Shown here in pieces: positions 40,814 through 56,886 of a stretch of DNA of 64,000 nucleotides; position 1 is the stretch's first letter, and the number at the start of each line of letters is the position of its first letter. Below the pieces are notes generated by a model. It did no database searches, had not been told where the DNA came from, and saw only the letters and a program-made list of their open reading frames with translations. The translations under genes were made by a program, and so were the position numbers. Source of the stretch: Burkholderia ambifaria AMMD (GTDB lineage Bacteria > Pseudomonadota > Gammaproteobacteria > Burkholderiales > Burkholderiaceae); NCBI RefSeq assembly GCF_000203915.1, contig NC_008391.1, positions 1,488,001-1,552,000 on the forward strand, written 5' to 3'.

Positions 40814-41225
40814 CGCTGCGGCGCACGGCGGCGCGTTGCTGGCGGCGCGGATTGGCGCGCGCGGCGGCCTGTCGGCGCCTTCTCCTGGACGGTGTGCCGC
40901 TTCGGCCGGGCGGGGCGTTGCAATCCGACTCGCCGGGGCGCGGTTGCCGGCCACGCGTCTGCTTCCCGCCTACGAAAACGAACACACTGGGGCCCGGATT
41001 CGTTGCGCAACGCGCGACGTGACGTTGGCTTCCTCCCTCCAACTGACGGCGCGGATCGGCCGCATTCGCACGTCACCTCTCCTCCCGCGGGACGCCTTCC
41101 CCGGAAACAGGACCAAGTCGTTGTGGCGACGATCCGACATTTCCCGCTCGCTGAATCTGGTCCTGCAAGGGGGCGCGGTTCCAAGCGCGCCCAGACAGGC
41201 GATCTGACACCCGTCCAATCGTCCC
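40814..41225. other. GC-rich intergenic stretch without a recognised gene
   Basis: About 410 bases after the ferritin-like gene. Reading frames in it are rich in Arg and Pro and look like non-coding shadows. No hairpin with a T tract, tRNA-like fold or operator could be recognised. It abuts a sharp change to AT-rich DNA at about 41226. Confidence 0.5.
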
Positions 41226-41889
41226 CTCAATAGAACAAATTCGAAACGACGTTTCAATTACCGCGCGCGATGGGTCCGTAGCACTTTTTTACAACTTTGT
41301 GACACCGACCGCCGTGGAATGCCCGTCCCACGGGCGCGCGCGGCCCGCGCGATGCGCAAATCAGCATATGCGCAAGCTCCTGTTTTTTATGTTTTCCCGA
41401 ATTTAAAGAGACTGGCCCAATACAATTGAAAATCACAACAAAACCTTGAATTAATAAATTAACAAGCCATACAGATGCACGCGAGTTAGCATCCGTCACA
41501 ACATTACAAACCAGAAAGAATTACCTCCATCGCAAACGTTTGCGGTTTCATTCTTGTTACACATAGAGTCGGACGAAGTGTTACCTGCCGCGCAAATCAA
41601 GTATATCTCGTTGATTTTTATACGATATTTCCTCCGCACCGGATTCAGCAACAGTCATACACGAAGCATTCCACGTACTTTCAAATACATTACTTTCGAA
41701 TGCATCAAAACACGATCCATTAACCATCTTTTAACTTTTCAAACGCCCCATTTTTCACTGTTTGTCAATCTCCAAATATCACCTCAAATAAACTCCGCCC
41801 ATCAATTTTGAGATCTCGCGCGATCGCACGGCATATTCATCTAACGAAAGAGACCGGTGTGTGGCGTGATTATTTGGAGGTAGCAGGGA
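41226..41889 (+). promoter_or_regulatory. AT-rich promoter island of the trimeric autotransporter
   Basis: About 660 bases with markedly lower GC than all neighbouring DNA, with many TTTT, AATT and AAAT runs (for example at 41395-41465 and 41600-41810). No convincing gene is present; the frames here are short and lack good starts. Such AT-rich upstream islands are typical targets of H-NS-like silencers in Burkholderia. The region ends with GGAGGT at 41876-41881, eight bases before the adhesin ATG. A perfect palindrome lies at 41531-41544. Confidence 0.6.
41531..41544. promoter_or_regulatory. Perfect 14-base LacI/PurR-type palindrome
   Basis: CGCAAACGTTTGCG is an exact inverted repeat centred on CG and matches the PurR/LacI-family operator pattern (GCAAACGTTTGC core). 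It is 346 bases upstream of the adhesin start. No LacI-family regulator is encoded in the window. Function as an operator is inferred from form only. Confidence 0.5.
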
Positions 41890-44800
41890 ATGAACCGCAC
41901 ATACCGCTCGATCTGGAACGAAGCCCTTGGCGCCTGGGTCGCGGCATCCGAACACGATTCGGCACGGGGTAAGCCGAACAAGTCGGCCGTTGTGGTCGCC
42001 GCAGTCGCGGCACTGACGATCGGGCTGCCCGGCTTCGCCGAGGCCAATACGCTCAACACACAGCAGACCTGCTTTACGGGCAGCAACAGCGCGGTCGGCC
42101 GCGTGAATCCGGGCGGCACGCAAAACCAGGCCGGCGACGGCTCCGGCACGTATTCGGTCGTGGCCGGGTGTAACTCCAACGGCAACGGCTGGACCGGCGT
42201 TACGGTTTATGGCTCGTTCGCACAGGCGACCGGCAACGGCGCGGTCGCCACCGGCATGCAGTCGTCGGCGGGCCTGTGGGGCGTCGCGGCCGGCCTCGAA
42301 ACCACCGCCAGCGGCACCGGTGCGACCGCCCTCGGCTTCGGCTCGACGGCGAGCGCGCTGAACTCGGTCGCGATCGGCGGCGCGGGCGGCAACGGTACGA
42401 CGCCGCTCTCGCAGGCAAACTCGACGCTCGCGTCGGGCGCAGGCGCGATCGCAATCGGCAGCAACGCAACGAAGGGCGCGCAGTCGGCCGCCTCCGACGG
42501 CATCGCGATCGGCGGACAGTCGTCCGTCGCATCGACCGCCACGTCGGGTATCGCCATCGGCCGCGGCGCGACCGTCAATGGGGCGTATGGCATCGCACAA
42601 GGTGACGGCGTCATCTCGGGCGCGACGGGCCAGAACGTGGCGATCGGTTCGTCCGGCACGACCGCGAACAGCGCCACGGCTACCGGCGGCGCGGTCGCAA
42701 TCGGCAGAGGCCAGGTTGCAAGCGGCGACGGCGCCGTTGCGATCGGCGATCCGAACAGCGCGACCGGCACGGGCGCACTGGCGATCGGCGCGAACAACAC
42801 GTCGAGCGGTTCGGGCGCCCTCGCGCTCGGCAATGGCAACTCGGCGAGCGGCACGGGCGCCGTCGCGCTGGGCAACAGCAGCACGGCGACCAACAGCTCG
42901 GTTGCCATCGGCAACGCCGCGACCTCGAACGTCGCGAATTCGGTCGCACTCGGCGGCGGTTCGGTGACGACCAGCGCCGCATCGGCGACGACGGGCGGCA
43001 CGACGACCGTCAGCAACACAACGATCGGTGGCCAGACGTTCGGCAACTACGCGGGCGCGGGATCGGCAGGCGGCGTCGTCAGCGTCGGTCAGCCGAATGC
43101 GGAACGCCGGATCCAGAACGTCGCGGCGGGCCTCGTCAGCGCGACGAGCACAGACGCGATCAACGGCAGCCAGCTCTTCGCCGTGGCAAGCACCACGACG
43201 TCGAGCATTACGAGCTTGTCGACTTCCGCGTCGACTGGTTTGTCGTCGGCGAATAGCTCGATCTCGTCACTGTCGACTTCCACTTCGACCGGGATCAACT
43301 CGTTGTCTACCGGCCTGAGCTCGACCAATAGCTCGGTTACGTCGCTTTCGTCGTCAACGTCCACCGGGCTGTCGTCGGCTAACAGCTCGATCGGCTCGCT
43401 CTCCACGTCGACCTCGACGGGCATCAACTCGCTGTCGACCGGCCTCAGCTCCACCAATAGCTCGGTTACGTCGCTTTCGTCGTCCGCGTCCACCGGACTC
43501 TCGTCGGCTAATAGCTCGATTGGCTCGCTCTCCACGTCGACCTCGACCGGCATCAACTCGCTGTCGACCGGCCTCAGCTCCACCAATAGCTCGGTTACGT
43601 CGCTTTCGTCGTCAACGTCCACCGGACTGTCGTCGGCTAACAGCTCGATCGGTTCGCTCTCCACCTCGACCTCGACGGGCATCAACTCGCTGTCGACCGG
43701 CCTCAGCTCGACCAATAGCTCGGTTACGTCGCTTTCGTCGTCCACGTCGACCGGTCTCTCGTCGGCTAATAGCTCGATCGGCTCGCTCTCGACTGGCCTG
43801 AGCTCGACCAACAGCTCGGTTACGTCGCTCTCGTCGTCCACGTCCACCGGACTCTCGTCGGCTAATAGCTCGATCGGCTCGCTCTCCACGTCGACCTCGA
43901 CGGGCATCAACTCGCTGTCGACCGGCCTCAGCTCCACCAATAGCTCGGTTACGTCGCTTTCGTCGTCAACGTCCAGCGGACTCTCGTCGGCTAATAGCTC
44001 CATCGGTTCGCTCTCGACCGGCCTCAGCTCGACCAACAGCTCCGTTACTTCGCTGTCGTCGTCGACCTCGACGGGGCTTTCGTCGGCAAACAGCTCGATC
44101 TCGTCGCTGTCTACCTCCACTTCGACGGTTCTCAGCTCCACGAACAGCTCGGTTACTTCACTTTCGTCGTCGACATCGACGGGTCTTTCGTCGGCAAACA
44201 GTTCGATCGGCTCGCTCTCGACTTCCACTTCGACGGGTCTCAGCTCGACCAATAGCTCCGTTGCTTCACTGTCGACTTCCACCTCGACCGGCATCAATTC
44301 CTTATCCACGGGCCTGAGCTCGACCAACAGCTCAGTTACGTCGCTCTCGTCGTCGACCTCGACGGGTCTTTCGTCGGCAAACAGCTCGATCGGCTCGCTC
44401 TCGACTTCCACTTCGACGGGTCTCAGCGCGACCAATAGCTCCGTTGCTTCACTGTCGACTTCCACCTCGACCGGAATCAACTCCTTGTCCACGGGACTGA
44501 GCTCCACCAACAGCTCCGTCACTTCACTTTCGAGCTCCACGTCGACGGGTCTGTCTTCGGCTAACAGCTCGATCTCGTCGCTGTCGACTTCCACCTCGAC
44601 AGGTCTCAGTTCGACAAACAGCTCCGTTGCTTCGCTGTCGACTTCCACCTCGACCGGCATCAACTCGTTGTCCACGGGCCTGAGCTCCACCAACAGCTCC
44701 GTCGTTTCGCTGTCGACCTCCACGTCGACCGGCCTCTCGTCGGCAAACAGCTCGATCGGTTCGCTGTCGACGGGCCTCAGCACGGTCACGACCAAAACCG

Positions 44801-47800
44801 ACAATCTCGGCAACAGCACCGCCGCGGCCCTCGGCGGCGGCGCGAGCTACAACCCGGCGACCGGCTCGGTTTCCGCTCCGTCGTACACCACGTACAACGC
44901 GAATGGGACGACGTCGACCGCCAACAGTGTCGGCTCGGCAATCGACAGCATCAACAACCAGGGCATCAAGTACTTCCACGCGAATTCGACGGGCACGGAC
45001 AGCCAGGCGCTCGGCACCGACTCGGTCGCGATCGGTCCGCACGCCATCGCCAACCACACCGGCGACGTCGCGCTCGGCAGCGGCTCCGTCACCGGCACCC
45101 CGAACGCAACGCCGACCGGTACCGTCGGCGGCGTGACGAGCACGTTCGCGGGCGGCAATCCGACCAGCGTCGTGAGCGTCGGCGACGCGAGCACGGGCAC
45201 CACGCGTCAGATCACCAATGTCGCGGCAGGTCAAATCACGGCGACCAGCACCGACGCGATCAACGGCTCCCAGCTCTTCGCGACCAATTCGGCCGTGGAT
45301 TCGCTGTCGACGACGGTGTCGTCATCCAGCAACGCAATCGCGTCGCTGTCGACCGGCATCACTTCGTTGTCGACAGGCCTCAGCTCGACTAACAGCTCGG
45401 TTACGTCGCTCTCGTCGTCCGCGTCGACCGGCCTCTCGTCGGCTAATAGCTCGATCACATCGCTCTCCACGTCGACTTCGACCGGTATCAACTCGCTGTC
45501 GACTGGCCTGAGCTCGACCAACAGTTCGGTTACCTCACTGTCGACCTCCACGTCGACGGGTCTCTCGTCGGCTAATAGCTCGATCACGTCGCTCTCCACG
45601 TCGACCTCAACCGGTATTAACTCGTTGTCGACCGGTCTGAGCTCCACCGATAGCTCGGTCGCCTCACTGTCGACCTCGACGTCGACCGGCCTGTCGTCGG
45701 CGAATAGCTCGATCTCGTCGCTCTCCACGTCGACCTCAACCGGTATTAACTCGTTGTCGACTGGCCTGAGCTCGACCAACAGTTCGGTTACCTCACTGTC
45801 GACCTCCACGTCGACGGGTCTCTCGTCGGCTAATAGCTCGATCACGTCGCTCTCCACGTCGACTTCGACCGGTATCAACTCGCTGTCGACTGGCCTGAGC
45901 TCGACCGACAGCTCGGTGGCGTCGCTGTCGACTTCGACGTCGACCGGCCTGTCGTCGGCGACGAGCTCGATCGGTTCGCTGTCTACGTCGACTTCGACGG
46001 GCATCAACTCGCTGTCCACGGGCCTCAGCTCCACCGACAGCTCGGTGGCTTCGCTGTCGACCTCCACGTCGACCGGCATCTCGTCGGCAACCAGCTCGAT
46101 CGGTTCGCTGTCCACGTCGACTTCGACGGGCATCAATTCGCTGTCCACTGGCCTCAGCTCGACCAATAGCTCGGTGGCTTCGCTGTCGACTTCCACGTCG
46201 ACCGGCCTCTCGTCGGCGACGAGCTCCATCGGTTCGCTGTCGACGGGCCTGAGCTCGACCGATAGCTCCGTCGCTTCGCTGTCGACTTCAACGTCGACGG
46301 GTCTGTCGTCGGCGACGAGCTCAATCAGTTCGCTGTCCACGGGCCTCAGCTCCACCGACAGCTCGGTGGCGTCGCTGTCGACTTCCACGTCGACTGGCCT
46401 CTCGTCGGCCACAAGCTCGATCGGTTCGCTGTCCACGTCGACCTCGACGGGCATCAACTCGTTGTCGACGGGTCTGAGCTCCACGGATAGCTCGGTCGCT
46501 TCGTTGTCGACCTCGACGTCGACCGGCCTCTCGTCGGCGACCAGCTCGATAGGTTCGCTGTCCACGTCGACTTCGACCGGTATCAACTCGTTGTCGACTG
46601 GCCTCAGCGCGACCGACAGCTCGGTTGCTTCGCTGTCGACTTCCACGTCGACGGGCCTCTCGTCGGCCACAAGCTCGATCGGTTCGCTGTCCACGTCGAC
46701 CTCGACGGGCATCAACTCGTTGTCGACGGGTCTGAGCTCCACGGATAGCTCGGTCGCTTCGTTGTCGACCTCGACGTCGACCGGCCTCTCGTCGGCGACC
46801 AGCTCGATAGGTTCGCTGTCCACGTCGACTTCGACCGGTATCAACTCGTTGTCGACTGGCCTCAGCGCGACCGACAGCTCGGTTGCTTCGCTGTCGACTT
46901 CCACGTCGACGGGCCTCTCGTCGGCCACAAGCTCGATCGGCTCGCTGTCCACCTCGACGTCGACGGGCATCAACTCGCTGTCGACTGGCCTGAGCTCGAC
47001 TGACAGCACAGTAACGTCGCTCTCGACCTCCACGTCGACGGGCCTGTCGTCGGCCACAAGCTCGATCGGCTCGCTGTCCACGTCGACCTCGACGGGTATC
47101 AACTCGCTGTCCACGGGCCTCAGCTCCACCGACAGCTCGCTCACGTCGCTCTCGACCTCCACGTCGACCGGGCTGTCGTCGGCAACCAGCTCGATCGGCT
47201 CGCTGTCCACGTCGACTTCTACCGGCATCAACTCGTTGTCGACGGGCCTCAGCTCGACCGATAGCTCGCTCACGTCGCTCTCGACTTCAACGTCGACGGG
47301 TCTCTCGTCGGCGACCAGCTCGATCAGCTCACTGTCCACCTCGACCTCGACTGGCCTCTCGTCGGCCACCAGCTCGATCGGCTCACTGTCCACCGGCCTC
47401 AGCTCGACCAACAGTTCGCTGACGTCGTTGTCCACGTCGACCTCCACCGGCATCAACTCCTTGTCGACGGGCCTGAGCTCCACGAACAGCTCTGTCGCAT
47501 CGCTGTCGACCTCGACGTCGACCGGCCTCTCGTCGGCGACAAGCTCGATCAGCTCGCTGTCCACCTCGACGTCGACCGGCCTCTCATCCGCAACCAGCGC
47601 GATCGGTTCGCTGTCCACCGGCCTGAGCTCGACCGACAGCACGGTAACGTCGCTGTCCACCTCCACGTCGACGGGTCTGTCGACGGCCACCAGCTCGATC
47701 ACGTCGCTGTCCACCTCGACGTCGACCGCGATCGACGCCGCGAAAACGCACTACTACAGCGTCAACGACAACGGCACGCAGCAAGCCAACTACGCCAACG

Positions 47801-49371
47801 ACGGCGCAACGGGCATCAACTCGCTCGCAGCCGGCGTGAACGCGAGCGCCGCAGGCGCCAGCAGCGTCGCGGTCGGCGACGGCTCGAACGCGCAGACGGC
47901 GGGTGCAGTCGCGATCGGCCAGAACGCGTCGGCCACCGGCGGCAAGGCGGTGTCGATCGGCTCCGGCAACACCGCGAGCGGCGACGGCGCGGTCGCGATC
48001 GGCGACCCGAGCGTCGCAACGGGCACCGGCGCAGTGGCGATGGGCGCGAACGACACGGCGACCGGCGACGGCGCAGTGGCGCTCGGCAACGCGAACACCG
48101 CAACCGGCAACAGCGCGCTCGCCCTCGGCAGCTCGAGCCAGGCCACCGCGGACAACACGATCGCGCTCGGCAACAAGGCAGTCGCCAGCGCCATCGGCGC
48201 CCAGGCCTACGGCTCGGCTGCATCGGCCACCGCGGCGGATGCGCTCGCCTTCGGCACGAACGCCACGGCGAACGTCGCGAACTCGATCGCCCTCGGTGCG
48301 AACTCGGTCACGAGCGCGGCAGTCGGCACCTCGAGCGCCACGATCGGCGGCGTCTCGTACCTGTTCGCGGGCAGCTCGCCGGTGGGCGTGGTGAGCGTCG
48401 GCCAGCCGGGGCAGGAACGCCAGATCACGAACGTCGCGGCAGGCCGGATCTCGCCCACCAGCACGGACGCGATCAACGGCAGCCAGCTCAACGCGACGAA
48501 CCAGGCAGTCAGCAGCCTGTCCACGTCGACCGCGTCGAACATCTCGTCGCTGTCGACCGGCATCGGTTCGCTGTCCACGGGCCTCAGCTCGACCAACAGC
48601 TCGGTGACGTCGCTGTCCACGTCGACGTCGACGGCGATCAGCTCGCTGTCGACGGGCCTCAGCTCGACGAACAGCAATCTGACGTCGCTGTCCACGTCGA
48701 CCTCGACCGGCATCGGCTCGCTGTCGACCGGCCTGAGCACGACGAACAGCACGGTGGCGTCGCTGTCGACGGGCGTGACGAACCTGGGCGATCAGGTATC
48801 CCAACTGTCGACGACGATCAACAACAACACGACGCGCTCGTTGAGCAACAACGGTGTCGCGGTCGACATGAACGGCACAGGCAACGATCGGCCGACCGTC
48901 ACCGCCGGCACGAACTCGGTGGCGATCGGCGCGAATTCGAATGACGGCGGTCGTTCGAACGTGGTGTCGGTCGGCAGCGACACGCAGCAGCGCCAGATCA
49001 CGAACGTCGCGCCGGGCACGCAAGGCACCGATGCGGTGAACGTGAACCAGCTGACGCAGGTGCAGACGACGCTGTCGACGGCACTGTCGGGCCAGCAGAC
49101 GCAGATCAACTCGCTGGGTTCGCAACTGCAGCAGACCGACCAGATGGCGAAGCAGGGTATCGCGGCCGTCGGCGCGATGGCGTCGATCCCGCAGCTCGAT
49201 CGCGACGCCAACTTCGGGATGGGTGTGGGCACATCGACCTTCCTCGGCCAGAAAGCGATGGCGGTCAACATGCAGGCGCGGATCACCGAGAACCTGAAGG
49301 CGTCGATCAACGGCGGCTTCAGCGGCGGTCAGAAGGTGATCGGCGCGGGCATGCTGTATCAGTGGAAGTAA
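41890..49371 (+). CDS. Giant trimeric autotransporter adhesin (YadA/Hia family)
   Basis: Outer-membrane adhesin of 2493 residues, type Vc secretion. The N-terminus is an extended signal peptide (MNRTYRSIWNEALGAWVAAS, then a hydrophobic core, cleavage near residue 52). Head modules with YadA-like AIGxxAxAxG repeats cover about residues 55-395, a smaller one about 970-1110, and another about 1955-2175. Each ends in a neck of the form RQITNVAAG...TDAINGSQL. Long Ser/Thr/Leu repeat stalks join them. The last roughly 100 residues are the YadA membrane anchor, ending GMLYQWK. Adhesins of this type in the Burkholderia cepacia complex mediate host-cell binding and serum resistance; the receptor here is unknown. 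Confidence 0.95.
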   Translation: MNRTYRSIWNEALGAWVAASEHDSARGKPNKSAVVVAAVAALTIGLPGFAEANTLNTQQTCFTGSNSAVGRVNPGGTQNQAGDGSGTYSVVAGCNSNGNGWTGVTVYGSFAQATGNGAVATGMQSSAGLWGVAAGLETTASGTGATALGFGSTASALNSVAIGGAGGNGTTPLSQANSTLASGAGAIAIGSNATKGAQSAASDGIAIGGQSSVASTATSGIAIGRGATVNGAYGIAQGDGVISGATGQNVAIGSSGTTANSATATGGAVAIGRGQVASGDGAVAIGDPNSATGTGALAIGANNTSSGSGALALGNGNSASGTGAVALGNSSTATNSSVAIGNAATSNVANSVALGGGSVTTSAASATTGGTTTVSNTTIGGQTFGNYAGAGSAGGVVSVGQPNAERRIQNVAAGLVSATSTDAINGSQLFAVASTTTSSITSLSTSASTGLSSANSSISSLSTSTSTGINSLSTGLSSTNSSVTSLSSSTSTGLSSANSSIGSLSTSTSTGINSLSTGLSSTNSSVTSLSSSASTGLSSANSSIGSLSTSTSTGINSLSTGLSSTNSSVTSLSSSTSTGLSSANSSIGSLSTSTSTGINSLSTGLSSTNSSVTSLSSSTSTGLSSANSSIGSLSTGLSSTNSSVTSLSSSTSTGLSSANSSIGSLSTSTSTGINSLSTGLSSTNSSVTSLSSSTSSGLSSANSSIGSLSTGLSSTNSSVTSLSSSTSTGLSSANSSISSLSTSTSTVLSSTNSSVTSLSSSTSTGLSSANSSIGSLSTSTSTGLSSTNSSVASLSTSTSTGINSLSTGLSSTNSSVTSLSSSTSTGLSSANSSIGSLSTSTSTGLSATNSSVASLSTSTSTGINSLSTGLSSTNSSVTSLSSSTSTGLSSANSSISSLSTSTSTGLSSTNSSVASLSTSTSTGINSLSTGLSSTNSSVVSLSTSTSTGLSSANSSIGSLSTGLSTVTTKTDNLGNSTAAALGGGASYNPATGSVSAPSYTTYNANGTTSTANSVGSAIDSINNQGIKYFHANSTGTDSQALGTDSVAIGPHAIANHTGDVALGSGSVTGTPNATPTGTVGGVTSTFAGGNPTSVVSVGDASTGTTRQITNVAAGQITATSTDAINGSQLFATNSAVDSLSTTVSSSSNAIASLSTGITSLSTGLSSTNSSVTSLSSSASTGLSSANSSITSLSTSTSTGINSLSTGLSSTNSSVTSLSTSTSTGLSSANSSITSLSTSTSTGINSLSTGLSSTDSSVASLSTSTSTGLSSANSSISSLSTSTSTGINSLSTGLSSTNSSVTSLSTSTSTGLSSANSSITSLSTSTSTGINSLSTGLSSTDSSVASLSTSTSTGLSSATSSIGSLSTSTSTGINSLSTGLSSTDSSVASLSTSTSTGISSATSSIGSLSTSTSTGINSLSTGLSSTNSSVASLSTSTSTGLSSATSSIGSLSTGLSSTDSSVASLSTSTSTGLSSATSSISSLSTGLSSTDSSVASLSTSTSTGLSSATSSIGSLSTSTSTGINSLSTGLSSTDSSVASLSTSTSTGLSSATSSIGSLSTSTSTGINSLSTGLSATDSSVASLSTSTSTGLSSATSSIGSLSTSTSTGINSLSTGLSSTDSSVASLSTSTSTGLSSATSSIGSLSTSTSTGINSLSTGLSATDSSVASLSTSTSTGLSSATSSIGSLSTSTSTGINSLSTGLSSTDSTVTSLSTSTSTGLSSATSSIGSLSTSTSTGINSLSTGLSSTDSSLTSLSTSTSTGLSSATSSIGSLSTSTSTGINSLSTGLSSTDSSLTSLSTSTSTGLSSATSSISSLSTSTSTGLSSATSSIGSLSTGLSSTNSSLTSLSTSTSTGINSLSTGLSSTNSSVASLSTSTSTGLSSATSSISSLSTSTSTGLSSATSAIGSLSTGLSSTDSTVTSLSTSTSTGLSTATSSITSLSTSTSTAIDAAKTHYYSVNDNGTQQANYANDGATGINSLAAGVNASAAGASSVAVGDGSNAQTAGAVAIGQNASATGGKAVSIGSGNTASGDGAVAIGDPSVATGTGAVAMGANDTATGDGAVALGNANTATGNSALALGSSSQATADNTIALGNKAVASAIGAQAYGSAASATAADALAFGTNATANVANSIALGANSVTSAAVGTSSATIGGVSYLFAGSSPVGVVSVGQPGQERQITNVAAGRISPTSTDAINGSQLNATNQAVSSLSTSTASNISSLSTGIGSLSTGLSSTNSSVTSLSTSTSTAISSLSTGLSSTNSNLTSLSTSTSTGIGSLSTGLSTTNSTVASLSTGVTNLGDQVSQLSTTINNNTTRSLSNNGVAVDMNGTGNDRPTVTAGTNSVAIGANSNDGGRSNVVSVGSDTQQRQITNVAPGTQGTDAVNVNQLTQVQTTLSTALSGQQTQINSLGSQLQQTDQMAKQGIAAVGAMASIPQLDRDANFGMGVGTSTFLGQKAMAVNMQARITENLKASINGGFSGGQKVIGAGMLYQWK
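43204..44780 (+). repeat. First stalk repeat block, 129-base unit
   Basis: The repeat TCGGTTACGTCGCTTTCG recurs at 43333, 43462, 43591 and 43720, exactly 129 bases (43 residues) apart. The unit reads SVTSLSSSTSTGLSSANS, SIGSLSTSTSTGIN, SLSTGLSSTNS. Some units lack 11 residues (STSTSTGINSL), giving 32-residue variants, and others replace blocks by similar ones. Serine and threonine make up more than half of the residues. Confidence 0.9.
45300..47740 (+). repeat. Second stalk repeat block, 129-base unit variant
   Basis: The same 43-residue pattern continues after the second head, with SSATSSIGSL and GLSSTDSSVASL in place of SSANSS and GLSSTNSSVTSL. Neighbouring units are nearly identical over long stretches (for example around 46435-46620 and 46680-46865), pointing to recent duplication or gene conversion. 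A short third block follows at about 48505-48790. Confidence 0.88.
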
Positions 49372-49391
49372 CGCGTCGCGCCGCCACGCCG

Positions 49392-49407
49392 CCGGCTCGC
49401 GAGCCGG
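49392..49407 (+). terminator. Hairpin after the adhesin gene
   Basis: CCGGCTCGCGAGCCGG is a perfect 16-base palindrome 20 bases after the adhesin stop. There is no following T run, so it may be an RNA-stabilising hairpin or a weak terminator between the adhesin and the OmpA-like gene. Confidence 0.35.
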
Positions 49408-49494
49408 ACGGCGCGCGGCGGCCGCGACGGCACGACGAGCCCGCCGCGCAACCCGCGGCGGGCCTCGGTCAATCCAAGCTTTGAGGACGTAACC

Positions 49495-50169
49495 GTGAAC
49501 AAACTCGCTCTTGCGCTCGCACTTTCCGCAACGGCTCTCGCCGCGTGCTCGACCGCATCCGGCCCGACCTTCAGTGCATCCGAACTGCAGCCGCGCGATG
49601 GCGTGCGCACTTTCCAGGTGGACTGCCACGGCCTGTTGTCGGGCCCGCAGACCTGCATGAAAGCCGCCCGCAAGATCTGCGGCGACCAGCCGGTGCGCAC
49701 TGTCGACTCGGCCCGCGCGCTGCGCGACGGCTCGGATCCCGCGACGCTGGTATTCCAGTGCGGCGCCGCGCCGGCCGAAGCGGCGTCGGCTGCCGAGCCC
49801 ACACCCGCGCCCGCGCCGGCCGCGGTCGAACATGTGAACCTCGCGGGCGACGCACTGTTCGCGACGGGCCTCGCCACGCTCACGCCGGCCGCGCGCGCAT
49901 CGCTCGACAAGTTGTTGAGCGAGCGCGAAGACCGTACGTATACACAGGTCACGGTCACCGGCCATACGGATTCGGTCGGCAACGACGCCGCCAATCTCGC
50001 GCTGTCGAAGCGCCGCGCGGAAACCGTCGCGGGCTACCTGAAGGCGCACGGGCTGAACGCGCAAACCGTGTCGGTCTCGGGCCGCGGCAGCGCGGATCCG
50101 GTCGCGTCCAACGCGACGGCCGAAGGCCGCGCGAGCAACCGCCGCGTCGACATCTCGCTGCAACGCTGA
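49495..50169 (+). CDS. OmpA-family outer-membrane lipoprotein
   Basis: Lipoprotein of 224 residues starting with GTG. The lipobox ALAAC puts the lipidated Cys at residue 18. A middle domain with several cysteines (VDCHGLLSGPQTCMKAARKI) precedes an Ala/Pro linker. An OmpA C-terminal peptidoglycan-binding domain runs from about 115 (VTVTGHTDSVGNDAANLALS, then KRRAETVAGYL). It starts 123 bases after the trimeric autotransporter. OmpA-like genes often follow such adhesin genes in Burkholderia and may help anchor or assemble the trimer. Confidence 0.9.
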   Translation: MNKLALALALSATALAACSTASGPTFSASELQPRDGVRTFQVDCHGLLSGPQTCMKAARKICGDQPVRTVDSARALRDGSDPATLVFQCGAAPAEAASAAEPTPAPAPAAVEHVNLAGDALFATGLATLTPAARASLDKLLSEREDRTYTQVTVTGHTDSVGNDAANLALSKRRAETVAGYLKAHGLNAQTVSVSGRGSADPVASNATAEGRASNRRVDISLQR

Positions 50170-50529
50170 GCCACCGGCCGTCGCACCTTCACGCGGCGGC
50201 CCTGACCCGCAGCATCCACCGCGCCGACGGCCCTTGATCAGGGCGCCGGCGGCTATGTCAAAGTTCGTCAGCCCCCTCCACAAACCGCTGACTTCCGTGC
50301 CACAATCGCCGCAAACAGCTGCCGGGGCATTCCGCCCGCGTCGCGCGCCGTGCCAGTCCCGCCCGACGACACATCGGAATCCGCCGGCCGCCCCGCGATC
50401 CGCATCGCGCGACTCGTTGTCGAGCGCGCGCCGGCGCGAACGCAACGACGACAATCCACGGCGCGCCGATACGCGGCCTGGCGCTCGATGCCACGGCCGA
50501 ACGCACGACGCCGCAGAGGAAACCAACCG
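50170..50529 (+). other. Intergenic stretch before the DUF2827 pair
   Basis: 360 bases without a supported gene. The DUF2827 frame is open through its second half, but no family similarity starts before 50530. No clear promoter or terminator could be read; the DNA is GC-rich. The DUF2827 genes could be transcribed from here or together with the OmpA-like gene. Confidence 0.4.
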
Positions 50530-51675
50530 GTGACGGACATCAATCAAGCCGCCTCGCGCGGCGCCCGCAAGCAACGGCCGGCTGTCGGCATCTCGCTGTT
50601 TGCGCGGGACGGCCAGGCGATCTGGGAAAACGGCATTCACCAGAACATCGCGTACCTCGCGATGATGCTCAAACGCTCGGACCGCGTCGGCCCCGTCTAT
50701 TTCCTGAACGGCGGCGACGCGAACGCATTGCCGCTCGGACTCGAACTCGATGGCCTCGACGTGCCGCTGGTGAGGCCCACCGACGTCACGCACGAGCTCG
50801 ACGTCGTGATCGAGATGGGCGCGCAGCTACCGCTCGAATGGCTCAGGCACGTGAAGGCGCTCGGCACGAAGCTCGTCGCGTGCTACGTCGGCCACACCTA
50901 CAGCGGTCTCGCCGAAACACCGATCTTCGAAAAGCCGTCGGGGCACATCTTCAACGGCACGCAGTTCGACGAAGTGTGGGTGCTCGAGAAGTCGCAGAAG
51001 ATCGACGTGCCGCTCTTGCGCACGCTCACGCGCGCGCCGGTTCATACGATTCCGCATCTGTGGTCGCCGTACTTCCTCGATCGCCGCATCGCCGCGCTGG
51101 CGAGCGAAGGCGTCACGTTCGGCTATCGGCCCGGCCGCCGTCCGTGGCATCTCGCCACGCTCGAGCCGAACATCTCGGTCGTGAAGTCCTGCCATTACCC
51201 GATGCTCGTGTGCGACGAGTTCTACCGCGCGCATCCGGATGCCGTGCAGCATCTGTTCGTCGTCAACGCGATGCACATGAAGGCGCATCGGACCTTCGTG
51301 CACTTCGCGAACAGCCTCGACCTCGTGCGCCAGCACAAGGCGACGTTCGAGCCGCGCATCGACCTGCCGGGCTTCATGGCGCGCCATGCGGATGCCGTCG
51401 TGTCGCACCACTGGGAAAATCCGCAGAACTATCTGTACTACGACGTGCTGTACGGCGGCTATCCGCTGATCCACAACTCGACGCTGCTCGGCGACGCCGG
51501 CTATTACTACCCGGATTTCGATTCCGTCGCGGGCAGCCACGCGCTGCGCGATGCATGGCTGCATCACGACGAGCGGCTCGACGACTATCGCGCGAAAGCC
51601 GACCGGCTGCTGCAGTCGGTCTCGATCGACAACCCCGCGAACCTGGACGCGTTCGTCACGCGCCTGGTCGCCTGA
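50530..51675 (+). CDS. DUF2827 protein, putative glycosyltransferase (copy 1)
   Basis: Protein of 381 residues. DUF2827 family members look like two-domain GT-B glycosyltransferases. Segments shared with the other two copies in the window are IWENGIHQN near the N-terminus, DVVIEMGAQ, KPSGHIFNGTQFDEVW, EPNISVVKSCHYPMLV, and the C-terminal VVSHHWENPQNYLYYDVLYG with YPLIHNSTLLG. The GTG at 50530 has AGAGGA nine bases before it. No signal peptide, so it acts in the cytoplasm. Given its place behind a Ser/Thr-rich adhesin, modification of that adhesin is a reasonable hypothesis. Confidence 0.8.
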   Translation: MTDINQAASRGARKQRPAVGISLFARDGQAIWENGIHQNIAYLAMMLKRSDRVGPVYFLNGGDANALPLGLELDGLDVPLVRPTDVTHELDVVIEMGAQLPLEWLRHVKALGTKLVACYVGHTYSGLAETPIFEKPSGHIFNGTQFDEVWVLEKSQKIDVPLLRTLTRAPVHTIPHLWSPYFLDRRIAALASEGVTFGYRPGRRPWHLATLEPNISVVKSCHYPMLVCDEFYRAHPDAVQHLFVVNAMHMKAHRTFVHFANSLDLVRQHKATFEPRIDLPGFMARHADAVVSHHWENPQNYLYYDVLYGGYPLIHNSTLLGDAGYYYPDFDSVAGSHALRDAWLHHDERLDDYRAKADRLLQSVSIDNPANLDAFVTRLVA

Positions 51676-51689
51676 ACCGGAGCATACGC

Positions 51690-52844
51690 ATGTCGGACTC
51701 CAATGCCCGTCAAGCGCCCGGCGAGGGCAAGCGTCTCGTCGTCGGCGTGTCGCTGTTCGTGCGCGGCGCCGGCCAGTCGCTGTGGGAAAACGGCATCTTC
51801 CAGAACTGCCTACTGCTGATCCTGCTGCTGCGTCAGTCGCCGCACATCGCTCAAGCGGTGATGGTGAACGGCGGCGAACAGCTCGCCGATCCGCAGTTGA
51901 TGCTCGGCGAATGGGACGTGCCGCTGCTGTCGATGGACGAAGCGCTGCAGCGCTGCGACGTGTTGATCGAAATGAGCGCGCAGTTCAGCGCCGATTACCT
52001 GCGCGCGTTCCGCGACCGCGGCGGCAAGGTCATCACGATGCGGGTCGGCAACGACTACGTGATCGACATCGAGCGCGCGATGTTCGACAAGCCATCGGGC
52101 TTCCTGTTCTCGGGCGCGCCGTACGACGCGGTGTGGACGATTCCGGAATTCGAGCGCTCGTGCCTGCACTATTACCAGACGGGCCTGCGCGCGCCGGTGA
52201 CGATCGTTCCGCACATCTGGCATCCGATGCTGTTCGACAAGGCGCGTGCGACGCTCGGCGCCGGCCTGTCGTTCGGTTATCAGGCCGGCAAACCGCGCTG
52301 GCGCGTGACGATGTTCGAGCCGAACATCTGCATGGTGAAGACGAGCATCATCCCGATGCTGGTGACTGAAGAGGCGTATCGCGCGAAGCCCGAATTCCTC
52401 GAGTTCGTGCGCGTGTGCAACACGCTGCACCTGAAGGAACATGCGACGTTCGTCCACTTCGCGAAGAGCCTCGACATCGTGAACCACGGGATCACGACGT
52501 TCGAAAGCCGCTACGCGGTGTACGAGTTCATGGCGGCCTACGGCGACGCAGTGGTGTCGCACACGTGGGAAAACGCGCAGAACTACCTGTACTACGAACT
52601 GCTGTACGGCGACTATCCGCTGATCCACAACTCGCCGTTCCTCGGCAAGGCCGGGTATTTCTATCCGGACTTCGATTGCCAGGCTGGCGGCCGGGCGCTG
52701 CTGCAGGCGTTCGACGAACACGACGCGAACCTCGAAGCGTATCGCGAGCAATCGAAGCACGTACTCGACTCGGTCAGCATCTACAACCCCGACAACGTCG
52801 CCGCGTATTCCGACGCGATCGCGTCACTCTATCGCGACGCATGA
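51690..52844 (+). CDS. DUF2827 protein, putative glycosyltransferase (copy 2)
   Basis: Protein of 384 residues and paralogue of the preceding gene, 14 bases downstream. LWENGIFQN, DVLIEMSAQFS, KPSGFLFSGAPYDAVW, VPHIWHPMLF, EPNICMVKTSIIPMLV and VVSHTWENAQNYLYYELLYG follow the same order as in copy 1. The duplication is old, since much of the remaining sequence differs, so the two may act in different steps or as a heterodimer. Its end overlaps a possible upstream start of the DUF4019 gene. Confidence 0.8.
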   Translation: MSDSNARQAPGEGKRLVVGVSLFVRGAGQSLWENGIFQNCLLLILLLRQSPHIAQAVMVNGGEQLADPQLMLGEWDVPLLSMDEALQRCDVLIEMSAQFSADYLRAFRDRGGKVITMRVGNDYVIDIERAMFDKPSGFLFSGAPYDAVWTIPEFERSCLHYYQTGLRAPVTIVPHIWHPMLFDKARATLGAGLSFGYQAGKPRWRVTMFEPNICMVKTSIIPMLVTEEAYRAKPEFLEFVRVCNTLHLKEHATFVHFAKSLDIVNHGITTFESRYAVYEFMAAYGDAVVSHTWENAQNYLYYELLYGDYPLIHNSPFLGKAGYFYPDFDCQAGGRALLQAFDEHDANLEAYREQSKHVLDSVSIYNPDNVAAYSDAIASLYRDA

Positions 52845-52876
52845 CGCGCCGCCCTCTCCCCGCTTCGGACTCCGAC

Positions 52877-53344
52877 ATGAACGCATACCGGCCCCTCTCC
52901 CGCGCGAAATGGTTGATCGGCTGCGCCGTCGCGCCGCTCGCGATCGGCGCGCACGCGCAATCCGGCGGCGAATCGGCCGATGCACTGCTGCGCGACGCCG
53001 ACGCGGTGTTCAAGCAACTCGATGCCGGCCAGTACGGCGCGGTATGGACCGATTCCGCCGCGTTCGTGAAGGCACGCATCAAGCAGGACCAGTTCGCGGC
53101 GGACATGCAGCGCGCGCGCCAGTCGGTCGGCACGGTCCGCCATCGCGGCTGGGCGCAGGTCACGCGCATCCGCTACACGAACGCGCCGGCAATGCCCGAC
53201 GGGCTTTACGCGAACATCGACTACGCGACGACGCTCACGACCGGCACGACCGTGTACGAAAAGCTGAGCTTTCGACTCGACGACGACGGTCGCTGGCACC
53301 TGACCGGCTATGTGCCGCGCCAGGGGCAGGATTTCACGCCGTAA
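52877..53344 (+). CDS. Secreted DUF4019 protein
   Basis: Protein of 155 residues with a signal peptide (LIGCAVAPLAIGAHA). The mature part has the DUF4019 pattern: AVFKQLDAGQYGAVWTDSAA, then a central helix and a C-terminal strand pair LSFRLDDDGRWHLTGYVPRQ. Proteins of this family are small periplasmic or surface proteins without known role. An in-frame ATG at 52841 overlaps the DUF2827 stop (ATGA) and would extend the N-terminus by 12 residues; either start keeps the operon link. Confidence 0.75.
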   Translation: MNAYRPLSRAKWLIGCAVAPLAIGAHAQSGGESADALLRDADAVFKQLDAGQYGAVWTDSAAFVKARIKQDQFAADMQRARQSVGTVRHRGWAQVTRIRYTNAPAMPDGLYANIDYATTLTTGTTVYEKLSFRLDDDGRWHLTGYVPRQGQDFTP

Positions 53345-53548
53345 GCTGCACGGCGTCCCGAGCGGGCGATGAAAATCATCGTCGCGATTACGATCAACGT
53401 GCAGCGCGACGCTGCGCAGTCACAGATGATGGACACGTTCATCGAACCATCGCACACGAAAGGCGATGCGCGCCGGGAATCCGGAGATTCCGCCAAGAAC
53501 CGACGCGGTGCGCTTGCCCGGCAAGCGCATACCCGCGATCGGTGAGCG

Positions 53549-53995
53549 TCAAGCGCGGCGCGCAAGCGGCCGCGACGCTTGCACGCCGCCGTCTGCGCGC
53601 CGTGCGGCAAACGCGCGGCCATGCCGGCGTCCGATCCGTGCCAACCTCATGAAACATCGGAGTGCGGCGCCGCTGACCTGCCCGGCGCGCCTCGCGAGGC
53701 TACCCGATACACCGCACGCGATCGCCGAATCCTCGCCGCAGGCGCCCGCAAACACGCCGGCGTAGTAGTGCCGTGCCGCGAGTTCGCGGCCGTCGGCGTC
53801 GAGCGGCTGCATCCGGTGAATGCGGTGCGCGACGACTTGCAGGCCGTCGAGATACGGCGCGACGTCGATCGGCGTATCGGTCGATTCGGCGCCGAGCTGC
53901 CACACCATGTCGGCCAGTTCGGCGATCGCGACGAGTTCGCGCGGATCGGCCGCCTGCGTGCCCATTCCGTGTCCGATCTTGTTCGTCGCCGCCAT
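53549..53995 (-). CDS. Hypothetical protein following the EAL gene
   Basis: Predicted protein of 148 residues beginning MAATNKIGHGMGTQAADPRE. The first 95 residues look like a compact helical domain (LVAIAELADMVWQLGAESTD; PYLDGLQVVAHRIHRM). The remainder is rich in Arg and Ala and may be read-through into non-conserved sequence. AAGGGG precedes the ATG. The gene is 62 bases downstream of the EAL-domain gene on the same strand, so the two are likely one transcript. I do not recognise a family. Confidence 0.55.
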   Translation of the reverse strand: MAATNKIGHGMGTQAADPRELVAIAELADMVWQLGAESTDTPIDVAPYLDGLQVVAHRIHRMQPLDADGRELAARHYYAGVFAGACGEDSAIACGVSGSLARRAGQVSGAALRCFMRLARIGRRHGRAFAARRADGGVQASRPLARRA

Positions 53996-54057
53996 GCCCA
54001 CGCCCCTTTGCGATCCATCGTTACCCGATACGTGCGCCCGGCGCCCGCGCTGCTGCG

Positions 54058-54861
54058 TCATGCGGCGGCCGGCGACCGCCAGCTGAAGCGAACGCCCTGC
54101 GCCCACGCGACGCCGGAATCCAGGATGATCTGCCGATCGGTCTCGTTCTCCACGCCTTCGACGACGACATGCCGCGCGCTTTCGTGCGCAAACGCGATCA
54201 GCCGGCGAAACTGGTAGCGCCCGATCGCATTGCGCTTGATCAGCGACAGCACCGACTTGTCGAGCTTCACGATATCGGGGTTGCCGACCACCAGGTTGTT
54301 CAGCGCGCTGAAGCCGACGCCGAAATCGTCGATCGCGACGCGGCATCCGGCCTGGCGGAACCGATTCACGAACGACCGGCCCGCGACGGGGTTCAGCGGC
54401 CCAGTCTCGGTGATCTCGACGACCAGCCGCGCCGCGACCGACGGCTCGCGCTCGAGCCGCCTGAAGATGGCCAGCCACGCGTCGTCCACCGCCGCGCTCG
54501 CCGCCGCGACGTTGCAGCCATACACGGCCTGCGGATCGGCACGCAGCGCGTCGATCGTCCGGCCCACCACGAGCCGGTCGAACCAGCGCATCAGCCCGAG
54601 CGACTCGAGGCGCGGCAGGAACGCGAGCGGCGGCAACGCGTCGCGCGAGCCCCAGCGCAACCGCGCGAGACATTCGTGATACAGCACGCCGCCCGACAGG
54701 TCGGCGCGGCAGACCGGCTCGCGCGCGAACCCGAGCCGGCATTCGACGAAACTGCGTACCGACGCAAGGTCGGGGTGATCGTCAGGCGCGCCGAACACGA
54801 GATCGATTTCGTCCCGATTCGCTACGCTGTTCGCCTCCAGGCGAGGTTCGACCGCATTCAT
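54058..54861 (-). CDS. EAL-domain protein (cyclic-di-GMP phosphodiesterase-like)
   Basis: Protein of 267 residues consisting almost only of an EAL domain. The signature motif reads ECLARL instead of EALLR, keeping the Glu. Other ligand positions are present: Asn in GCNVAAAS, Glu in VEITE, the Asp pair in IDDFG, Lys in IVKLDKS, Glu in VVEGVEN and Gln in WAQGVRF. Enzyme activity is therefore plausible. The start at 54861 has GGAG six bases upstream. Lying beside an adhesin locus, it could adjust cyclic-di-GMP for adhesion. Confidence 0.82.
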   Translation of the reverse strand: MNAVEPRLEANSVANRDEIDLVFGAPDDHPDLASVRSFVECRLGFAREPVCRADLSGGVLYHECLARLRWGSRDALPPLAFLPRLESLGLMRWFDRLVVGRTIDALRADPQAVYGCNVAAASAAVDDAWLAIFRRLEREPSVAARLVVEITETGPLNPVAGRSFVNRFRQAGCRVAIDDFGVGFSALNNLVVGNPDIVKLDKSVLSLIKRNAIGRYQFRRLIAFAHESARHVVVEGVENETDRQIILDSGVAWAQGVRFSWRSPAAA

Positions 54862-55431
54862 CCGGCGCTCCGGCAATTGTCGGGCCGCCGATGACGGCCC
54901 GCGCTCTCGATACATGTGGCGCGCGCCGACCACGACACGCGCCACCGCCTACCCGGCCCATCCTCTTGTTTCGATCTTTTCAGGGAGCGTACTTTTCATT
55001 TCGGCGCACCGTCAAATCAGATATTGTCAACGATATTCAAATACTAGAAATACACCACGCATGCACGTCGCCGACAGTGCGGCAGGCCACACAAAACCAT
55101 CGACGATATTGCGCGCCCAAACGCATTTGGCAAAAATCGATTTATCGATGGTCTCGCTTCAAAATCAGGCGACCGTTATTTCGTATGATTAATATCCGGC
55201 AGCGAAGCCGTATCCGGACATGTCGCCCGCATTCGCCGCGAGGCCGTGCTGGCCGCGCCACCAGCCGGAACCCATCGGGCATTCGGTCCTCGGAGCATTT
55301 AATTTTGTCGTTTCAAACGATATTGAAAATGACCAAACGATAGTCTGCCGAAATAAAATGACGCCATTGGTCCGAGCAATACGGCATTTGTCGATTGAAA
55401 GATTTTTAACGATCTTTTCGATTTGTTAACC
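54862..55431. promoter_or_regulatory. AT-rich intergenic region upstream of the EAL gene
   Basis: About 570 bases, AT-rich from roughly 54960 on, with no convincing gene. Related elements CAACGATATTCAAATA (about 55028) and AACGATATTGAAAATG (about 55315) occur in the same orientation and could be protein sites. The composition resembles the adhesin promoter island, suggesting joint silencing by an H-NS-like protein. The EAL-gene promoter must be in the left part. Confidence 0.4.
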
Positions 55432-55524
55432 TATAAAATGATTTCTGACGGTCTTCCCTCGGAGCCGTCAATTTCGTGCCTTCAAAAACCGTCGGATCTT
55501 GCCCGGTTCGGCGGTTTCTTTTTT
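55432..55524 (+). ncRNA. Candidate small RNA with terminator
   Basis: A -10-like TATAAAAT starts at 55432; no good -35 box is seen. The following 80 bases form a hairpin TGACGG...CCGTCA (55446-55470), an unpaired stretch, and an intrinsic terminator, AAACCGTCG pairing with CGGCGGTTT (55486-55517), ending CTTTTTT. No open frame precedes it on the plus strand. The terminator also has a T run in the opposite direction and may simply end the minus-strand DUF2827 transcript, so the RNA gene is tentative. Confidence 0.35.
55486..55524. terminator. Intrinsic, probably bidirectional terminator
   Basis: Stem AAACCGTCG/CGGCGGTTT with TTTTTT after it on the plus strand and AAAAA before it, which becomes TTTTT on the minus strand. 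It is 70 bases beyond the stop of the minus-strand DUF2827 gene. Confidence 0.75.
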
Positions 55525-55593
55525 ACGGCATGATTTTCATCAGACATTAAGGTGGGGGCCGCCGGCTGCGGCAGGCGGCACACAAACTCAAAC

Positions 55594-56736
55594 TCAAGCA
55601 GCCGCCGCGCCGATCAGGTTCGCGAGCAGCGCGTCGTATTCGCCGACGAGCGCGGGGTTCGCCGACGTATAGCGGCCGAGGATCTCGCGCTGGCGCCGCG
55701 TGTACCCTTGCCAGTCGTCGTCGTGCGTGTGCAGCGCTTGCAGCAGCGCCTGCGCACCCTGCTGCACGTCGTTGTCCGGATAGTAGTAGCCGAGATCGGG
55801 CGCGAGGCTCGCGTTGTGCACGAGCGGATAGCCCTGCCAGCACACGTCGAAATAGAAGTAGTTGAGCGGGTTCGACCATTGATGCGACACGACGATGTCG
55901 GTCAGGTCGGCCAGGAACAGCGGCGTGTCGAAGCGCCCGACGAAGCTCGCCTTGCCCGCGCGCACGATGTCCAGATAGTTCATCAGCATCACGAATTCGG
56001 GGCTGTCGTGCGCGAGACGATCGGCGTTCGTCACGTGCGTGAAGCAGATCGCATCGGGGTCACTGCGATACGCTTCGTCGATGATCAGCATCGGGTACAC
56101 GCAGAACTTCACGACGTTGTGGTTCGGCTCCATCACCGTGAGCCGCTTGCCCGGCTCGCTGCGCGGCCGGTATTCGCCGTGCTCGGGCAGCGATGCCGCA
56201 CGCGCGCTCAGGAACATCGGATCCCATACGAACGGCACGACGCGCCCCGGGCAGCGACGCAGCGACTGCAGGAACGGCAGCGACGACGGCGCGATCTGCG
56301 GAATCGCCCACACCTCGTCGTAGCCGCGGTTGATGAAGAGCGAATCCCACAACCGGCGACCGAACAGCATCGACTCCATCGCGTTGATGTACTCGACGCC
56401 GCAGCAATAGCTGACGATCTTCGCGCCGCGCGCCTTCAGGTAGTCCGTCTGCGCGGCGTCGATCTGGCCGCCGAGCTCGATCACCACGTCGAGCGCATCC
56501 TTCATGTCGGCGAATGCGCGCGTGTCGAACACGGTGTGATCCCACGGCAGCGCGTCGGTGAGCGGCACGTCGGTCGTGTTGACCAGCGTCACGCGATAGC
56601 CATGCGGCGACGCCATCAACAGCTTCGCGAGAAACAGCGCGTTCTGCTTGATGCCATTGATCCACAGGCTTTCGTCGGGGGCGCGCAGACCGATCGTGAT
56701 ACCGATGCGCAGGCCGTTCAGGACAGGAGACGTCAT
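55594..56736 (-). CDS. DUF2827 protein, putative glycosyltransferase (copy 3)
   Basis: Protein of 380 residues. It is the most divergent of the three copies but keeps the order of landmarks: LWINGIKQN, DVVIELGGQID, EPNHNVVKFCVYPMLIIDEA, VVSHQWSNPLNYFYFDVCWQ and GYPLVHNASLAPDLGYYYPD. The start at 56736 has AGGAGAC just upstream. It is transcribed towards the EAL region from its own promoter. As with the other copies, a cytoplasmic sugar-transfer role is inferred from family and context. Confidence 0.78.
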   Translation of the reverse strand: MTSPVLNGLRIGITIGLRAPDESLWINGIKQNALFLAKLLMASPHGYRVTLVNTTDVPLTDALPWDHTVFDTRAFADMKDALDVVIELGGQIDAAQTDYLKARGAKIVSYCCGVEYINAMESMLFGRRLWDSLFINRGYDEVWAIPQIAPSSLPFLQSLRRCPGRVVPFVWDPMFLSARAASLPEHGEYRPRSEPGKRLTVMEPNHNVVKFCVYPMLIIDEAYRSDPDAICFTHVTNADRLAHDSPEFVMLMNYLDIVRAGKASFVGRFDTPLFLADLTDIVVSHQWSNPLNYFYFDVCWQGYPLVHNASLAPDLGYYYPDNDVQQGAQALLQALHTHDDDWQGYTRRQREILGRYTSANPALVGEYDALLANLIGAAAA

Positions 56737-56886
56737 CGTCGGCGGGACGGGAAATTGAATGGACACGATGTGGCGCGCATGGCGGCGCACCCCGGGAACA
56801 ACGGGTCATTCTAGCGGACTGTCGACCGCAGGACTGTCATGGATGGTCAGCGATGGACGGGTTACGGCGCGCCCTTTGCCGAGCTG

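Follow-up and report, generated by a model that had tools for sequence, protein, structure and literature searches.

The window analysed here, a 64,000-nucleotide stretch of Burkholderia ambifaria AMMD (contig NC_008391.1, positions 1,488,001 to 1,552,000), encodes a trimeric autotransporter adhesin (TAA) with a long Ser/Thr-rich stalk and three proteins of the Pfam family DUF2827. We propose, with a probability of roughly 0.68, that DUF2827 proteins are glycosyltransferases of the GT-B fold class that O-glycosylate this and other Ser/Thr-rich TAA stalks in the cytoplasm before export. DUF2827 genes are linked to TAA genes and co-occur with them, the models of two of the three copies have a GT-B fold, and a set of positions is conserved throughout the family; from this evidence, all of it comparative or predicted, we infer that the proteins are active enzymes, where in the cell and in which order they work, and that they attach a sugar by an O-linkage. 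A preliminary description of the locus had already suggested dedicated adhesin glycosylation by enzymes of a GT-B type. Linkage and predicted fold support that reading, and glycosylation itself is what they would imply; further support comes from the Ser/Thr contrast between TAAs of the same genome and from the absence of rich stalks from those DUF2827-less genomes whose TAAs were read.

The adhesin and its DUF2827 genes

The adhesin, its stalk and the three DUF2827 genes are located as follows (window coordinates; S+T and K+R, fractions of Ser plus Thr and of Lys plus Arg).

41890-49371, + strand: TAA, 2493 aa (Pfam ESPR, YadA_head, YadA_stalk, YadA_anchor)
43192-44781, + strand: Ser/Thr-rich stalk block 1, candidate acceptor array (aa 435-964, S+T 0.63, K+R 0)
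45310-47730, + strand: Ser/Thr-rich stalk block 2 (aa 1141-1947, S+T 0.64, K+R 0)
48523-48777, + strand: Ser/Thr-rich stalk block 3 (aa 2212-2296, S+T 0.60, K+R 0)
50530-51675, + strand: DUF2827-A, predicted GT-B glycosyltransferase, 381 aa, GTG start (PF10933, structure model)
51690-52844, + strand: DUF2827-B, 384 aa, 14 bp downstream of A (PF10933 sequence match)
55594-56790, - strand: DUF2827-C, predicted GT-B glycosyltransferase, 398 aa, GTG start (PF10933, structure model)

With ESPR, YadA head and stalk from the window protein scan, and a C-terminal YadA anchor from the whole-genome search (E 3.4e-16 at G000:C3:1537189, G000 being the window's genome), the adhesin is a type Vc protein. 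The three Ser/Thr-rich blocks, the first built of SLSTSTSTG-type repeats, total 1422 aa without any Lys or Arg. Their hydrophobic residues are spaced by 7, 11, 18 and 25 residues, a heptad/hendecad coiled-coil pattern, and most Ser and Thr should therefore point outwards. At the DNA level the stalk consists of nested tandem repeats with periods that include 54, 96, 129 and 225 bp.

All three DUF2827 proteins match PF10933 over nearly the whole profile (E <= 1e-144) and are the only copies found in this genome. They have no apparent signal peptide, their highest 19-residue hydropathy being 0.8-1.5. For DUF2827-C an alternative in-frame ATG at 56736, where the preliminary description let the locus end, would give 380 aa. 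That description had reported a 2493-residue trimeric autotransporter with a stalk more than half Ser and Thr, followed by an OmpA-like lipoprotein, two tandem DUF2827 genes and a DUF4019 gene, all of which is confirmed. The third DUF2827 gene which it placed further on is present as well, but on the opposite strand, and the ordered motifs said to be shared by the three copies (LWENGI-QN, DVVIEMGAQ, VSHxWENxQNYLYY) match exactly, as quoted, no more than one or two copies: IWENGIHQN stands in copy 1, DVLIEMSAQ in copy 2, and LWINGIKQN, DVVIELGGQ and VSHQWSNPLNYFYF in copy 3.

Linkage and Ser/Thr content across genomes

DUF2827 occurs in nearly every Burkholderia sampled (57 of 61 genomes, plus one short weak match) and in about twelve further named genera. 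Within the 61 genomes DUF2827 was found in 58, among them G039 with the weak match (E 2.2e-6), and YadA stalks in 58. If G039, which carries only a short DUF2827 piece and a 95-aa anchor frame, is counted as DUF2827-less, both features are present in 57 genomes and both are missing from three, while G042 has stalks alone (Fisher p 1e-4, for related genomes whose counts are not independent).

Distances were determined in 20 hand-picked genomes of the 25 Burkholderia genomes with four contigs or fewer. All 55 DUF2827 copies (those listed plus the third copy of the window's genome) lie at most 10.2 kb from a YadA anchor, and 22 of 22 clusters are near an anchor, compared with a mean 1.8% of the genome within 10 kb of one; only 22 of the 134 anchors are near DUF2827. 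Twenty-four further genomes, from nine other named genera and Burkholderia sp. 8Y, were reached via DUF2827 and not via adhesins. There, 22 of 33 clusters are at most 11.2 kb from an anchor (20 within 10 kb, about 1.5% expected), and Paraburkholderia kururiensis has four cassettes, each adjoining an anchor (one on a 263-aa frame). The placement is not random, in agreement with the preliminary description, and the predicted transferase genes are genetically tied to the adhesin in the manner of a dedicated adhesin glycosylation system. In 150 genomes of the order DUF2827 is found in three and anchors in 13, the three lying within the 13 (p 5e-4), and in 369 genomes of the class DUF2827 exceeds the cut-off only in the window's genome, with anchors in 17 (both samples include the window's genome).

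Clustering of 80 loci shows that, besides DUF2827, no neighbour is as widely recurrent as the TAA; one further recurrent group is read as antisense shadow frames. This bears on the idea that DUF2827 builds or alters another surface glycan (lipopolysaccharide, capsule or a lipid-linked sugar) which the adhesin binds or with which it is co-regulated. The same fold class includes enzymes that make lipopolysaccharide or small glycosides, and DUF2827 is accompanied by glycosyltransferase-like and methyltransferase-like genes in Hydromonas (L081) and by GT2, GT4 and GT11 genes on L097, a contig of a metagenome-assembled genome (MAG). The recurrence of the TAA argues against such a role, as does the lack of any flippase, polymerase or ligase among the ten window proteins scanned; moreover, the Ser/Thr contrast would be left unexplained, and we consider this explanation improbable.

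That contrast was obtained by counting S+T along the TAA reading frame set by the anchor, a TAA within 15 kb of a listed DUF2827 being termed linked. Twelve of the 20 Burkholderia genomes were chosen for it, with DUF2827 places known and composition not yet seen. Frames below 300 aa were dropped (3 of 79), and so were 17 of 100 anchors in the further genomes, where 3 of the 83 remaining frames, from G042, were counted apart. In Burkholderia the median S+T is 0.47 (0.41-0.53) for 15 linked TAAs versus 0.20 (0.15-0.54) for 61 unlinked ones (p 1e-8), and in the further genomes 0.39 (0.23-0.49) for 18 versus 0.20 (0.08-0.54) for 62 (p 6e-6), p-values which overstate independence, since there are orthologues among the linked TAAs. 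The linked TAA has the highest S+T of its genome in 22 of 27 cases. In Burkholderia, 15 of 15 linked and 17 of 61 unlinked TAAs contain a 200-residue stretch whose S+T is 0.5 or more; in the further genomes 12 of 18 and 15 of 62, respectively, do so. Words such as SLSTSTS, STSTSTG and SLSTGLS rank among the commonest in many, though not all, of the rich stalks from several genera, whether linked or unlinked.

Genomes with TAAs but without DUF2827 are different. In eight of them, none of 19 whole TAA frames has a 0.5 stretch, even at 2500-4400 aa; the frames comprise 16 (highest S+T 0.32) and the three of G042 (highest 0.33). The 16 stem from ten order-level genomes with anchors, 16 of whose 31 anchors were read in seven genomes, mostly on the longest frames. 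For 26 TAAs from another 16 genomes of the class the C-terminal portion (at most about 560 residues) was read, with 0.39 as the highest value, a weak comparison since the window's own TAA has only 0.42 in the same part. These data also speak to the possibility that the linkage is real and Ser/Thr richness merely a by-product of repeat expansion, the target being the head or another neighbour, for example the OmpA-like lipoprotein. The nested 54-, 96-, 129- and 225-bp repeats of the stalk DNA would agree with it, and so would a linked TAA of Ramlibacter which is not Ser/Thr-rich. Yet TAAs of 2500-4400 aa from DUF2827-less genomes have S+T of only 0.16-0.24, and, apart from the antisense-shadow group, only DUF2827 and the TAA recur across many genera in the 80 loci, which makes a by-product very improbable.

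Predicted fold, acceptor residue and mechanism

The models of DUF2827-A and -C consist of two Rossmann-like domains and match GT-B enzymes over the whole chain, in line with the GT-B-type fold suggested earlier. The nearest folds of A are of the GT4 type, and the top Foldseek match is a homologue of O-GlcNAc transferase (OGT), which we take to belong to GT41; SdgB is among the fold matches of both A and C. Neither TibC nor HMW1C is among the fold matches listed, which does not exclude them. HMW1C-like N-glycosyltransferases (NGTs) have a GT-B fold, too. Although the nearest folds are GT4-type, no GT4 sequence domain was found: none of 52 DUF2827 members matches a glycosyltransferase Pfam family at E <= 1, including Glycos_transf_1, Glyco_transf_4 and GT41. 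Searches of PDB gave nothing credible either, the best hit by sequence being pyruvate dehydrogenase kinase (E 0.061) and the best by profile having E 3.5; the GT-B assignment thus rests on predicted structure. As a separate observation, the best viral structural match of A in BFVD is A0A7L9AXF5, an uncharacterised protein of the giant virus Pyramimonas orientalis virus 01B (E 8e-22, TM score 0.80 over the query, 18% identity), with an E value far below that of any PDB entry listed.

By a motif near the N-terminus DUF2827 proteins were assigned to four subfamilies, of which A, B and C are usually found as a set. The fourth, D (YNGANQ motif), forms a clade with support 100 and is present at 27 Burkholderia loci; the window's genome has no copy of it. 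All 246 copies of the four subfamilies share eight invariant residues and, at a ninth position, either Asp or Glu; together these look like a donor site. An acidic pair of the EX7E type and a Lys of the phosphate-binding loop are hallmarks of GT4 enzymes. K219 and Asp/Glu305 are kept in all 246 copies, whereas residue 296 is variable (E, Q, G, S or another); a correspondence of K219 and Asp/Glu305 to the GT4 residues is our own reading. None of the positions shared by all four subfamilies is a Cys, and DUF2827 accordingly has no counterpart of TibC's iron finger with its four Cys.

Glycosylation of stalk Asn at N-x-S/T, in the manner of HMW1C-type NGTs, has to be weighed against Ser/Thr as acceptor. 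It would fit the OGT homologue at the top of the Foldseek matches, and NGTs do modify TAAs according to passages of a 2021 review (PMC8151025). The window stalk has 40 NX(S/T) sequons versus 41.2 expected from composition. In linked rich stalks sequons are above expectation in 11 of 27, most clearly in L169 (46 versus 29.6), and below it in 16 of 27, far below in two Caballeronia stalks (14 versus 43.3 and 21 versus 60.4) and another one (4 versus 13.9). Sequons are not a shared feature and Ser/Thr richness is, which favours Ser/Thr rather than Asn as the acceptor in rich stalks; together with the lack of GT41 matches in the 52 members this leaves modification of Asn unlikely.

In the proposed O-glycosylation, DUF2827-A, -B and -C would act in the cytoplasm on the stalk not yet exported. 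One of them might prime Ser/Thr with a first sugar and the other two might extend the glycan; since the three are usually found as a set, successive action or a joint complex is probable. The glycosylated adhesin would then be exported via Sec and the autotransporter pathway and, as the stalk spacing should keep most Ser and Thr outside, would form a mucin-like rod coated with sugar. Other Ser/Thr-rich TAAs of the same cell might be modified in trans. Unlinked rich TAAs fit such an action, and also plain repeat expansion. A rich TAA is present elsewhere in three of four readable genomes without an anchor-adjacent DUF2827 cluster: the only listed TAA of Collimonas silvisoli (3689 aa), with DUF2827 not beside its anchor, has S+T of 0.54, Hydromonas duriensis has six TAAs at 0.34-0.50, and in G091, where the closest listed anchor is some 170 kb away from DUF2827, three TAAs out of seven were read, two of them with 0.52 and 0.42. 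The Hydromonas MAG, whose frames are shorter than 300 aa, and Variovorax dokdonensis, which has no anchor, are outside this count.

Besides the partial orthology of linked TAAs, several observations weigh against the proposed O-glycosylation. No glycan has been shown so far on any such TAA. In the fourth readable genome, Collimonas OK607, the only listed TAA (549 aa) has S+T of 0.30, and a rich stretch is seen in 32 of 123 unlinked TAAs of DUF2827-bearing genomes. In the further genomes, six of 18 linked TAAs have no 200-aa stretch at 0.5; five of them come from frames of 431-670 aa, in some cases truncated at a contig end (that of Variovorax CAN15, L091, overlaps a 2429-aa frame with S+T of 0.37 by its short anchor frame), and the sixth, the 1907-aa TAA of Ramlibacter albus with S+T of 0.29 and the only anchor match of its genome, is a real exception. 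Eleven of the 33 clusters have no anchor in reach: three in Collimonas, two in Hydromonas, a P. kururiensis fragment, and one each in Variovorax J22R133, Variovorax dokdonensis, Caballeronia jiangsuensis (L103, followed by a 784-aa Ser/Thr-rich frame cut by the contig end), Burkholderia sp. 8Y and Caballeronia GAFFF1. Two Verrucomicrobiota MAG contigs carry DUF2827 (A and B, or A) without a TAA beside it, in a type I secretion/RTX context: L097 and L086 have HlyD and GT2/GT4/GT11 genes, or the end of an RTX repeat protein, as neighbours. Furthermore, the fold matches include the pseudo-glycosyltransferase VldE and the epimerase WecB, and a GT-B fold is no proof of transfer. In Burkholderia the BAHT homologue BimC (BAHT, bacterial autotransporter heptosyltransferase), encoded beside the autotransporter BimA, is described in the pertinent part of PMC6439308 as having no transferase activity. 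BimC and VldE-type proteins, and the proposal that HMW1C doubles as a chaperone (mentioned in PMC8151025), would be in keeping with DUF2827 as catalytically dead GT-B chaperones that carry the low-complexity stalk to the secretion machinery; the donor-site-like positions kept in 246 of 246 copies are more than binding of a varied stalk would need, and such chaperones seem hardly probable.

Known systems and gene context

For cytoplasmic glycosylation of type V proteins the 2021 review, in the part concerned, names two enzyme classes, NGTs and BAHTs (PMC8151025). BAHTs such as AAH and TibC, known with AIDA-I, TibA and Ag43, are cytoplasmic Ser/Thr transferases often encoded adjoining their autotransporter (passages of PMC4358343 and PMC8151025), and DUF2827 resembles them in its dedicated transferase-type genes beside an autotransporter and in its predicted Ser/Thr target. 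TibC, as outlined in PMC4358343, has an N-terminal β-barrel, a hairpin thumb and a four-Cys iron finger, whereas DUF2827 proteins have no Cys at family-wide conserved positions, give GT4-like models and usually occur as three paralogues. BAHT targets described in these two sources are β-helix passengers, unlike the coiled-coil stalk here. The closest Burkholderia precedent is BimC/BimA. HMW1C-like NGTs (GT41; targets HMW1A and some TAAs) are likewise cytoplasmic and act on type V adhesins including TAAs (PMC8151025, in part), but they link glycans to Asn of NX(S/T), a sequon without consistent enrichment in the stalks studied, and DUF2827 has no GT41 sequence match. DUF2827 would work like NGTs and BAHTs while having neither a GT41 sequence nor an iron finger.

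Several glycosyltransferases encoded with long Ser-rich adhesins are a feature of the Gram-positive serine-rich repeat protein (SRRP) and Sdr systems (GtfA/GtfB with further Gtfs; SdgA/SdgB). These modify Gram-positive surface proteins, and SdgB chains are listed with 485-502 residues versus 381-398 aa for DUF2827; SdgB is among the fold matches, and no similarity in sequence was detected by the profile search of the PDB.

Published RT-PCR primers for BCAM2418 match exactly within the 2775-aa TAA of L059, with DUF2827 genes downstream, and B. cenocepacia BCAM2418, a Ser-rich TAA like the window adhesin, therefore belongs to this locus type. Its length is given as 2775 aa (PMC11054960), 2750 (PMC7970998) or, in a table, 558 (PMC10303873), in the parts of these papers that concern it. 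O-Glycosylation of its Ser/Thr repeats has been proposed (Pimenta 2020; PMC7142374, passage on the repeats). A published shaving data set covers BCAM2418 at residues 205-282 of 2775 alone (PMC11054960), which is compatible with a modified stalk but has little force, because stalks of this type offer trypsin no cleavage sites. No glycosylating enzyme is named in the searched portions of the BCAM2418 literature, and the sole glyco-stem match in the searched text of PMC7970998 refers to host glycoproteins. A literature search for DUF2827 yielded nothing beyond a database table listing the family under 'Uronic acid pathway'.

If the proposed O-glycosylation is true, a Pfam family of unknown function obtains a function, a third enzyme class stands beside NGTs and BAHTs, TAA stalks of nearly two-thirds Ser and Thr are explained, and protein-only work on BCAM2418-type adhesins overlooks a glycan surface. 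More tentatively, and with some doubt, DUF2827 might be a third cytoplasmic glycosyltransferase class for type V secretion in general, with an A-B-C oligosaccharide on every Ser/Thr-rich TAA. Hundreds of Ser/Thr would then carry a defined short oligosaccharide and make the stalks bottle-brush rods, rich stalk and enzyme set would have spread and multiplied jointly through Burkholderiales and beyond, and some Verrucomicrobiota DUF2827 may serve type I-secreted RTX giants.

Other genes of the locus are the following.

49495-50169, + strand: OmpA-like lipoprotein (PF00691; lipobox LAAC read by eye)
52877-53344, + strand: DUF4019 protein, 155 aa, 32 bp downstream of DUF2827-B (Pfam)
54058-54945, - strand: EAL-domain gene (cyclic di-GMP phosphodiesterase-type) between DUF2827-B/DUF4019 and DUF2827-C (Pfam)

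The lipoprotein shows weak similarity (39 bits, cut-off 350 bits) to TpgA, a protein that partners a TAA at the peptidoglycan, and is possibly a peptidoglycan-binding partner that may anchor the adhesin. Scans for promoters and terminators were no better than shuffles (2 versus 1.7 and 12 versus 11.4), with no promoter signal above chance in the leader, and operon structure is therefore judged from gene spacing alone. An Rfam search of window positions 36000-62000 gave no match. The leader itself (41226-41889, about 660 bp upstream of the adhesin start) is AT-rich, with a GC content of 51% in the bin 41000-41999 versus 69% and 72% in the adjacent bins.

Elsewhere, Hydromonas L081 (12269-21106) and the Burkholderiaceae MAG contig L083 (7977-15834) combine a DUF2827 set with a GT34-like gene product and others of 200-520 aa; two of the latter, both in L081, match methyltransferase families, perhaps pointing to a richer glycan. 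Variovorax dokdonensis (G081, L108) has a DUF2827 fragment besides two full copies and no YadA anchor in its genome; a joint decay of DUF2827 and TAA is possible. In Collimonas L076 and L079 (6700-8770) a MORN-repeat protein and a secreted-looking protein of 215-234 aa, with relatives in five Variovorax loci, precede a C-A-B set with no linked TAA. In the window, DUF1493 and STM2901-family genes (56887-57809, - strand) adjoin DUF2827-C.

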